Source: Phycisphaerae bacterium
GTDB lineage: Bacteria; Planctomycetota; Phycisphaerae; Phycisphaerales; SM1A02
Length of the DNA: 64,000 nt
Assembly (NCBI GenBank): GCA_002709295.1
Contig: PAQL01000029.1
Location: forward strand, 122,232 to 186,231
Direction of reading: 5' to 3'
Positions within the stretch are counted from its first letter, which is position 1. Each line of letters opens with the position of its first letter. The translations under genes were made by a program, and so were the position numbers. Positions 19,691 to 22,649 of this stretch are shown here, in pieces. Under the pieces are notes generated by a model. That model searched no databases, had not been told where the DNA came from, and saw only the letters and a list, made by a program, of their open reading frames with translations.

Positions 19691-19776
19691 TGCGGATGAG
19701 AGGGCTCGAACCTCCACGGGATTTTACTCCCACTAGAACCTGAATCTAGCGCGTCTGCCAATTCCGCCACATCCGC
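19691..19776 (-). tRNA. tRNA-Leu(CAG), 3' CCA not encoded
   Basis: Reverse complement GCGGATGTGGCGGAATTGGCAGACGCGCTAGATTCAGGTTCTAGTGGGAGTAAAATCCCGTGGAGGTTCGAGCCCTCTCATCCGCA; acceptor stem pairs, CTAGA-TTCAGGT-TCTAG anticodon arm, long variable arm. Confidence 0.95.
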
Positions 19777-19896: not shown

Positions 19897-21054
19897 TCAC
19901 TCCGCCTGTGGCTCAGGCTGGGTTTCCGGAGCAGGCGTGCCCAGGTGGTGGGCGAGGACCTTCTGCTTGATCTCCTCGAAGAGATCCGGGTTCTCACGCA
20001 GGAACTGCTTGGAGTTCTCCCGGCCCTGCCCGAGACGGATGTCGCCGTAGCTGAACCAGGCCCCGGCCTTCTGGGCGATGCCGTCGTTGATGGCCAGGTC
20101 GAGGAGGTCTCCCGTTGCGCTGATGCCCTCGTTGAACATGATGTCGAACTCCGCGATCCGGAAGGGCGGAGCCACCTTGTTCTTGACGACCTTGGCGCGG
20201 ACGCGGTTGCCGACGTTGTTCTCGCCGTCCTTGATCGCCCCGATGCGACGGATGTCCACCCGGACCGAGGAGTAGAACTTCAGGGCCCGACCGCCGGTCG
20301 TGGTCTCGGGGCTGCCGAACATGACGCCGATCTTCTCGCGAAGCTGGTTGATGAAGATCACGATGACATCACTCTTGGCGATCGCGCCGGTGAGCTTGCG
20401 GAGGGCCTGACTCATCAGTCGGGCCTGAAGGCCGACATGGGAGTCGCCCATCTCACCCTCGATCTCGGCCCGGGGAATCAGGGCCGCGACGGAGTCGATG
20501 ACGATCACGTCGACCGCATTGGATCGAACCAGCAGCTCGCAGATCTCCAGAGCCTGCTCGCCGGTGTCCGGCTGGCTGACCAGCATCTCATCGATGTCGA
20601 CACCGAGGCGTCGGGCCCAGGTCGGGTCCAGAGCATGCTCGGCATCGATGAAGGCGGCCACGCCACCCTGCTTCTGGACATTCGCGGCCACGGTGAGGGC
20701 CAGGGTGGTCTTGCCGGAGGACTCCGGTCCGAACACCTCGACGACACGTCCCTTGGGAAGCCCGCGGCCTCCCAGGGCAAGGTCGAGACTGATGGCACCG
20801 GTCTGCACGCAGGGAATGCCCGCGAGCCGGTCGCCGTCCAACTTCATGATCGAACCCTTGCCGTACGCCTTCTCGATCTGACCCAGGGCACGGTCGAGGG
20901 CCTGCTTGCGGCCCGGATCCATCTCGATCCCACTCGTGGCATCCGTCTTCATGTCTTTGGTCTCCACGGTCTTGGTCGCCTTGCCGCGCCCCTTGGCCTT
21001 GGCCGGGGTCCTGGTCGGTGCGTCTTCGTTCACGATGGTGGCAGCCTTGGCCAT
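19897..21054 (-). CDS. recA: Recombinase RecA with Lys/Ala-rich N-terminal extension
   Basis: [62 protein letters not shown]. Likely start [34 protein letters not shown]. Confidence 0.96.
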
Positions 21055-21455
21055 GGTGTCTTCGCCTTCCGTTGCGAGGGGGTTTCGAGTTCGTTCGCTG
21101 GGTGATTCGGCCGAGGGTCGATCCGAATCGGTGATGGGATTCGATGAGGACTCGGGGTTGGAGTCCTCGGGGGGCATTTCACTTCTGATCACGGCTTCCG
21201 ACCCCCGCGAGCACTGGGGCGGGCGGTGGGCGGGGTGACCGTGAGGCGGGCCTCGACGCTGGTCGAACTGTACGAACCGGCCTGAGGGAAACCGGGCAAT
21301 CGGCGGTTTCTCCCGAGCGACGGCCTTCGTCGAGGACCATGGCCAGCCTCGCCGGCCGACGACCGGGAGCCTGCCCCGGGGTCGTTGGCGGGATGCCATG
21401 GAGAACGTTCGAGTGGTGTCTTGGTGTGGTTCATGACGGGGGGACGCGGCAGATA

Positions 21456-21514
21456 CCGAACGCTGACCGAACATCATCGGAAAGTCCGCCGAAATCCGTT
21501 CGGCTTTTGTTCGG
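21456..21514. promoter_or_regulatory. Candidate recA operator: two inverted CCGAAC-N5-CCGAAC direct-repeat boxes (contain GTTC-N7-GTTC)
   Basis: + strand 21456-21472 ccgaac gctga ccgaac; 21498-21514 gttcgg cttttg... read as gttcgg-ctttt-gttcgg, the reverse complement of ccgaac-aaaag-ccgaac. Confidence 0.65.
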
Positions 21515-21582
21515 AAACAGCAGCATCCCGGCTGGAGCCTCCCCCGTCAAGCCCCATTTCGGACCCGAGAGCGATGATTTTG

Positions 21583-21615
21583 ATCAAAAGAACCCCGGGA
21601 GGCAGAATCCCGGGG
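21583..21615 (-). terminator. Rho-independent-like terminator of the SDR gene
   Basis: Minus strand CCCCGGGA-TTCTGCC-TCCCGGGG followed by TTCTTTTGATC. Confidence 0.7.
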
Positions 21616-21677
21616 CTCACAGATCGTCGGATGTCTGTTCAGGCGGCCCGGACTCGGCCGGGCTCGCTCGACGGGGA

Positions 21678-22649
21678 TCAGTAGTTCGGAGTCGGCGGCC
21701 GGTACTGGCTCATGTCGGCGGACTTGAACCAGGCGATGGTCCGTTCCAGCCCCTCGCGAAGGGAGATCTTCGGCTCCCAGCCCAGCTGGCGACGAGCGAG
21801 GGAGATGTCGGGCTTTCGCTGCAGGGGATCGTCCGCGGGCAGGGGCCGGGCCTCGACCAGCTCCGATCCCCCACCTGCGATGTCCACCACCAACTCACCG
21901 AGCTCGCGGATCGTGAACTCACCGGGGTTGCCGATGTTGACCGGCCCGTGGAAGTCGTCGGGGCCGTTCATCATCGCCATCATCGCGTCGAGCAGATCGT
22001 CGCAGTAGCAGAACGACCGGGTCTGCGACCCGTCGCCGTAGATCGTGATCGGTTCGCCCTGCACCGCCTGGCGGATGAAGTTGCTGACCACGCGTCCGTC
22101 GTAGGGATGCATGCGGGGGCCGTAGGTGTTGAAGATGCGGACCACCCGCACGTCCACCGAATGCTGCCGGTGATAGTCGAACATCAGGGTCTCGGCCGCC
22201 CGCTTGCCTTCGTCGTAGCACGCACGAATGCCGATCGGATTCACGCAACCCCGGTAGTCCTCGGTCTGCGGGTGCACCTCGGGATCGCCGTAGACCTCGC
22301 TGGTGGAGGCGTGGAGCACCCGGGCCCCGACCCGCTTGGCGAGCCCGAGCATGTTCATCGCCCCCATGACCGACGTCTTGATCGTCTTGATGGGGTTGTA
22401 CTGGTAGTGGCCGGGCGCCGCGGGGCACGCGAAGTTGTAGATCTGGTCGACCTCGGCCTTGTAGGGATCGATCACGTCGTGCCGGATGAACTCGAAGTTG
22501 TGGTGATCGAGCAGGTGCACGATGTTGGACTTCTGGCTCGTGAACAGATTGTCCAGGCAGAGGACGTCGTGCCCCTGGGCGACCAGACGGTCGCAGAGGT
22601 GGGAGCCGAGGAAACCGGCACCGCCGGTGACGAGGATTCGCATGGCCAT
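21678..22649 (-). CDS. NAD-dependent SDR epimerase, UDP-glucuronate decarboxylase-like
   Basis: [40 protein letters not shown]...[16 protein letters not shown]...[17 protein letters not shown]...[22 protein letters not shown]. Confidence 0.9.

Follow-up and report, generated by a model that had tools for sequence, protein, structure and literature searches.

The LexA box of Gram-positive bacteria, CGAAC-N4-GTTCG, is an inverted repeat, and the motif of Verrucomicrobia is said to be the palindrome TGTTC-N4-GAACA. In Alphaproteobacteria the LexA motif is GTTC-N7-GTTC (PMC8565304; PMC3323433), and a LexA of this type also appears outside that class in Acidobacterium capsulatum, for which a title cited in two later papers (PMC3323433; PMC7739468) announces lateral acquisition of the alphaproteobacterial lexA gene. 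The LexA motif of Balneolaeota is the direct repeat TTACACATATTTTWTACATA, with binding shown experimentally, and LexA proteins are stated to have come to recognize direct repeats on several independent occasions (PMC7739468). LexA of Planctomycetes has been stated not to recognize the E. coli motif (PMC3108266); in the open-licence literature, at full text, no LexA motif was found reported for Planctomycetes, Phycisphaerae or Rhodopirellula, an absence that is itself no proof.

The DNA analyzed here, a 64,000-nucleotide stretch from a Phycisphaerae bacterium ("the window"), carries upstream of recA two elements that we predict, with high confidence, to be LexA operators of the recA promoter, of the direct-repeat type. 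The recA gene (19897..21054, minus strand) is identified with certainty by its product, which matches RecA (2.9e-134) and RecA_C of Pfam as well as TIGR02012; just 3' of it is a tRNA gene (window 19691-19776, minus strand; Rfam tRNA, 51.6 bits). Upstream, and on the same strand as recA, lies a sugar-nucleotide epimerase/decarboxylase gene (21678..22649, minus strand; Epimerase PF01370, 1.3e-53), whose intrinsic terminator (21590..21618, minus strand) consists of an 11-pair stem followed by TTTTGATC. Reading in the direction of recA, this terminator (21618-21590) precedes a putative -35 hexamer TTGACG (21550-21545), 17 bases, a putative -10 hexamer GATGCT (21527-21522), 7 bases, box 1 (21514-21498), 25 bases, box 2 (21472-21456), about 400 bases, and finally the recA ATG at 21054, all on the minus strand. 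Box 1 reads CCGAACAAAAGCCGAAC and box 2 reads GTTCGGTCAGCGTTCGG in the recA direction. Both match GTTCGG-N5-GTTCGG with zero mismatches, are mutually inverted and lie 42 bp apart, start to start, exactly as the first-pass annotation had described them; the terminator that it placed near the boxes is likewise present. In each box the half-site CCKAAC (GTTMGG) is directly repeated at an 11-bp period, the half-sites lying on the same strand and not forming a palindrome. With this topology, LexA would place its two winged-helix domains on the DNA in one orientation, as it does in Alphaproteobacteria.

The boxes are approximately 400-460 nucleotides 5' of the recA start codon, a distance that had been raised as a caveat; the long leader appears to be real, with a conserved promoter immediately 5' of the boxes. 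In an alignment of 12 genomes CTTGACR is invariant at the putative -35 hexamer, and CTTGACA-type -35 sequences are common in more distant relatives too, while the putative -10 hexamer occupies an aligned position, with a 17-base spacer, and ends 7 nucleotides before box 1. The promoter assignment is alignment-based; a strict sigma-70 consensus scan gave no promoter hit at recA. The predicted transcription start is near 21515, which would give recA mRNA a 5' leader of about 460 nucleotides and would place box 1, a LexA-type 11-bp direct repeat, at +1 to about +17, and box 2, inverted relative to it, at about +43 to +59.

Farther along the leader there is a second conserved block, GGGAGAAACCGCCGATTGCC (21295..21314, minus strand), which is kept in the 12-genome alignment. 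A GTTC-rich sequence nearby, cgaactgtacgaac (21264-21277), had been proposed as the relic of a further box; it lacks box conservation, and it overlaps a -10-like hexamer belonging to the second block, TACAGT (21267..21272, minus strand), which is so designated from its apparent alignment with TAGGAT/TACGAT in relatives. The block (GGGAGAAACCGCCGRTTG / GGGAGAAWCMGCCGRTT) and the TANNNT hexamer that follows it (window 21314-21267) are conserved in the 12 recA leaders of two genera and, by hand count in the sequences inspected, lie 42 nucleotides apart. The block and hexamer may comprise a second, damage-independent recA promoter with an upstream site. A search of the recA leader against Rfam gave no match.

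The exact motif is rare in this genome, but its count alone proves nothing. In the whole genome (3,678,879 bases in 43 contigs), GTTCGG-N5-GTTCGG is present in only four copies: two at recA, a third between genes on contig 12, in a divergent promoter, and a fourth inside rpoA, the latter being discarded as an operator since it is common to genome G092 and looks coding. Summed over the 31 spacings between 0 and 30, exact GTTCGG pairs number 88, or about 2.8 per spacing, and the exact motif is not numerically enriched relative to other spacings. A reversed-pattern control is unfair in that it destroys CG dinucleotides, and because the raw count is also unenriched, reliance is placed on conservation and on the offset and period tests. 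The evidence beyond chance is the pairing of two copies within one intergenic region, together with its conservation. That the boxes are chance repeats without function would fit the raw count, the four exact copies in 3.68 Mb being close to the number for other spacings, but the explanation is already refuted by conservation with fixed spacing in 12 of 12 genomes, and it has class-wide enrichment at the same promoters against it as well; its probability is negligible.

Footprinting of recA upstream regions in relatives, as had been suggested, revealed the box pair in all 12 genomes of two genera, that of the window (g1) and its sister genus (g34). The pair is exact in most and variant in G033, G148, G149 and G038. 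Eleven genomes have a start-to-start distance between boxes of 42 bp (4.0 helical turns), and G038 has one of 53 bp (5.05 turns), one turn more; this phasing is no more than suggestive, and a looped operator pair is a plausible hypothesis. All 17 columns of box 2 are identical in at least 11 of the 12 genomes, a degree of conservation reached by 76 of the 394 columns in the rest of the recA leader. The spacer of box 1 is variable (AAAAG, AAAGT, AAAGA, AAAAA or AAATA), and in G033, G148 and G149 box 1 has become CCAAAC-N5-CCTAAC.

These variants bear on the idea that the inverted pair is conserved as RNA, with box 1 and box 2 forming a hairpin at the 5' end of recA mRNA that controls transcription or stability. 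The two boxes can pair in two 6-bp helices in 9 of the 12 genomes, and the minimum-free-energy fold does contain the box 1-box 2 hairpin, but its energy is ordinary relative to shuffled sequences (z -0.84), and G033, G148 and G149 lose one pair in both helices through the box 1 changes to CCAAAC/CCTAAC, for which box 2 does not compensate. CCTAAC is exactly the change that the DNA motif tolerates, and the umuDC and contig-12 promoters discussed below have single boxes. We consider a hairpin function very improbable. Box 2 might alternatively be conserved as the start of a leader peptide or of an N-terminal extension of RecA. An open reading frame beginning at the box 2 ATG runs into recA in the window's own genome and in G092; in the other ten genomes it spans 52-115 codons and stops before recA. 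Beyond the box, third codon positions hold no excess of the differences, many gaps are frame-breaking, and the same box occurs at another promoter without the ATG. By the codon-position test the leader does not evolve like coding sequence, and we reject an extension or leader peptide as having scarcely any probability. The conserved pair is better read as DNA sites, and most probably as LexA operators.

The box 2 pattern GTTCGGTCAGNGTTCGG, searched among 183 family genomes, is found in g1, in g34, and once each in three g39 genomes. Genomes of g1/g34 typically have two matches, one with TCAGCG (at recA) and one with TCAGTG; the box 2 core with the TCAGTG spacer is at a second promoter in several g1/g34 genomes, and one TCAGTG-GTTAGG variant was also seen. 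Matches to GTTCGGTCAGTGTTCGG in g39 were rejected as second-locus sites, their flanks being unlike the second locus of g1/g34. On contig 12 of the window's own genome, a gene of about 210 amino acids (L007:3334-3972) is preceded by GTTCGGTCAGTGTTCGG, and in the g1/g34 relatives examined (L119, L124-L126, L129, L130, L133, L137 and L179) the same gene is preceded by GTTCGGTCAGTGTTCGG or its GTTAGG variant. G033 has CCTAACACTGACCGAAC at this locus where relatives have CCGAACACTGACCGAAC, so that CCGAAC and CCTAAC half-sites are interchangeable at this orthologous site. The approximately 210-residue product has no Pfam match; from its promoter, the gene is a candidate SOS gene.

Further evidence comes from recA upstream regions of the family (47 genomes, with three g1/g34 genomes left out) and of the rest of the class (29 genomes), and from a lexA set composed of the family plus 80 named records, mostly labelled Phycisphaerales, Phycisphaerae or other planctomycete MAGs. 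At recA, screening of k-mers yielded TACCGAAC. By eye, a recurring recA layout has CCGAAN-N5-CCGAACA just 5' of a CTTGACA -35 sequence and CCTANC-N5-CCGAACA over the -10 and start, the two being 46-48 bp apart. In an offset test that assumed no spacing, the similarity to CCKAAC was scored for each CCGAAC at offsets from -60 to +60 on both strands. For recA (47 genomes) there is one outstanding position, -11 on the same strand (z 6.6), where 52% score at least 5/6 compared with an average of 1.9%, and for lexA (80 loci) the same-strand -11 position is likewise on top (z 6.3). At -11 the controls are flat, with z -0.4 for far-upstream DNA and z -1.0 for recA coding sequence.

A period test, in which near-perfect sites (at least 11 of 12 positions) were compared with the mean of other periods, gives the same answer. 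At period 11, recA regions of the family have 61 sites in 39 of 47 genomes versus a mean of 4.3; those of the rest of the class have 18 sites in 16 of 29 genomes versus 0.9; and lexA regions have 67 sites in 51 of 80 versus 6.1, with coding controls at background. Part of the family data had already been seen when G or T was allowed in CCKAAC, which gives the class-level set more independence as a test. In the phylum's other classes the period-11 signal is weak (5 versus 0.4 sites at threshold 11, in 3 of 25 genomes), and the motif is therefore claimed for Phycisphaerae only. The combined consensus is CCKAAC-ATATA-CCGAACA, in which the A-T-A-T-A spacer is conserved although it was absent from the selection criteria. 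Some relatives (L067, L073, L020, L022, L041 and L055) also have CCGAAC-N4-GTTCGG beside direct repeats, at recA or lexA; such arrangements are possible intermediates in motif evolution.

Upstream of lexA in the window's own genome are GGTAAC-ATATA-CCGAAC and CCTACC-ATGTT-CCGAACA, 34 bp apart. Part of the family has an additional inverted GTTCGG 16 bp upstream in the lexA promoter, which may make the arrangement of dimers there more complicated. An open reading frame (L006:3626-4603) with an LGPGGDF motif separates the lexA promoter sites from the gene itself, its stop overlapping the lexA start; the frame tested has no Pfam match. Motifs similar to it can be read before lexA in several relatives, and lexA may thus be the second gene of an SOS operon. 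The umuDC operon has GTTAGGGGCATGTTAGG directly before umuD; its UmuD is well matched (NCBIfam, 1.1e-46) and its UmuC (2.3e-123) falls just below the curated cut-off. The umuD 5' region has GTTCGK-N5-GTTAGG in G006, G049, G013 and G051, and all ten further relatives have CCTAAC-N5 repeats, matching at least 10 of 12 positions, just 5' of umuD.

A strict search with CCKAACANNNNCCGAACA found 52 sites in the 183 family genomes versus 9 for a reversed control, whose dinucleotide make-up differs. At the loci that were read, genes 3' of these sites are imuA-like followed by Y-family-like open reading frames, umuDC, recA, a uvrD helicase, and an unnamed protein of 260 amino acids; the imuA-like genes have a single ImuA match, a weak one (9.4e-7) that does not reach the curated cut-off. 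In two genomes (L330 and L335) a LexA-type box is directly before the gene for a protein of about 260 amino acids (METLDHRALK...), which is unmatched in Pfam and, in the copy at L335, in NCBIfam as well; part of a similar protein is found 3' of umuC in the window's own genome (L154:1-474). A contig 31 match, CCTAACCAAACCCTAAC (C31), was set aside as it is among further CCTAAC copies. That region (L178:2568-2584) has several CCTAACC copies between open reading frames and resembles a mobile element, and these may be other repeats and not SOS boxes. The motif appears, then, at both recA and lexA, in a pattern indicative of autoregulation, and at translesion polymerase operons as well (umuDC, and imuA-like plus Y-family-like open reading frames).

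LexA is the natural candidate for the protein that binds the boxes. The genome encodes one canonical LexA, without which the first-pass reading could not have stood, with LexA_DNA_bind and Peptidase_S24 (self-cleavage) domains and a match to the TIGR00498 equivalog above cut-off (8e-48). In alignment it retains the Ala-Gly cleavage site and the Ser and Lys residues, and its nearest PDB structures are those of LexA repressors. In every precedent known to us, a repressor that has its motif in the promoters of its own gene, of recA and of umuDC is LexA. It is conceivable that the boxes are bound by another damage-responsive regulator, such as an activator of the WYL type (PafBC, for example) or an Xre-type repressor, with LexA using another motif; the second conserved block in the recA leader may belong to another regulator. 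Yet at lexA's own promoter, and again at that of umuDC, the prevailing element is this 11-bp direct repeat, which is the pattern expected of an autoregulated LexA, and GTTC-N7-GTTC is the known alphaproteobacterial LexA motif (PMC8565304; PMC3323433). We consider another regulator improbable, though less so than the RNA or coding explanations, and infer that LexA is the binder. The first-pass proposal of a LexA operator with direct-repeat topology like that of Alphaproteobacteria is thereby supported by the comparative tests that it called for, with LexA present, the recA motif conserved, and the repeat recurring at lexA, umuDC and imuAB-like promoters.

Resemblance of the box to that of Alphaproteobacteria raises the matter of origin. 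Identity of the LexA DNA-binding domain is 33.8% to Sinorhizobium, 33.3% to E. coli and 39.4% to Geobacter, and ahead of the recognition helix the protein is shorter by one residue than the aligned non-planctomycete sequences. By these pairwise identities the domain is no closer to alphaproteobacterial LexA than to others, which makes a recent lateral transfer unlikely and lends no support to the recruitment of a lexA gene from that class; an old transfer is conceivable. The comparison thus does not point to the route announced, in the title noted above, for Acidobacterium capsulatum. Phycisphaerae would be a further independent case of direct-repeat recognition, as the Balneolaeota are in their own phylum, with a different half-site; the Balneolaeota motif has experimental binding, whereas that of Phycisphaerae has been deduced by comparing genomes.

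Taken as an operator, the Phycisphaerae box shares with the alphaproteobacterial one its direct repeat, 11-bp period and GTTC half-site, and its location at recA, lexA and translesion polymerase promoters. It differs in the half-site GTTMGG, where A often replaces C (GTTAGG), in a preferred AT-rich spacer, and in the paired inverted copies at recA of two genera. The Gram-positive box has the same GAAC/GTTC core, and the CCGAAC-N4-GTTCGG of some relatives recalls it, but it is inverted and not direct, and the inverted form is not a class-wide rule in Phycisphaerae. Verrucomicrobia, of a related superphylum, share the GTTC half-site but reportedly in a palindrome and not a direct repeat. What is new is a lineage and a variant of the known direct-repeat LexA operators.

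In the mechanism that we propose, a sigma-70-like promoter, TTGACG-N17-GATGCT, immediately 5' of the boxes would drive recA, and LexA would repress it through the boxes. LexA bound at box 1 would occlude the start site (+1 to +17) and prevent initiation at recA. A second dimer would sit on that same face of the helix at box 2, which is inverted and lies four helical turns downstream. Dimers on the two boxes may touch, cooperate, loop or act as a roadblock. Following DNA damage, RecA filaments would promote LexA self-cleavage, and recA would be derepressed. A more ambitious proposal, which we regard as possible but doubtful, is that the LexA of Phycisphaerae acquired its recognition of direct repeats independently of that of Alphaproteobacteria, and that recA of the two genera came to have two opposed operators, four to five turns apart and downstream of the start, where two asymmetrically bound dimers cooperate or loop.

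The family exhibits direct, inverted and mixed arrangements of one half-site, with CCGAAC and CCTAAC substitutable at orthologous promoters, and so offers one more example for understanding how LexA changes between binding palindromes and binding direct repeats. The boxes give a usable LexA recognition sequence for the whole class Phycisphaerae, and with a defined consensus (CCKAACATATACCGAACA / CCTAACATATACCGAACA) the SOS regulon of this large, mostly uncultured class becomes predictable.
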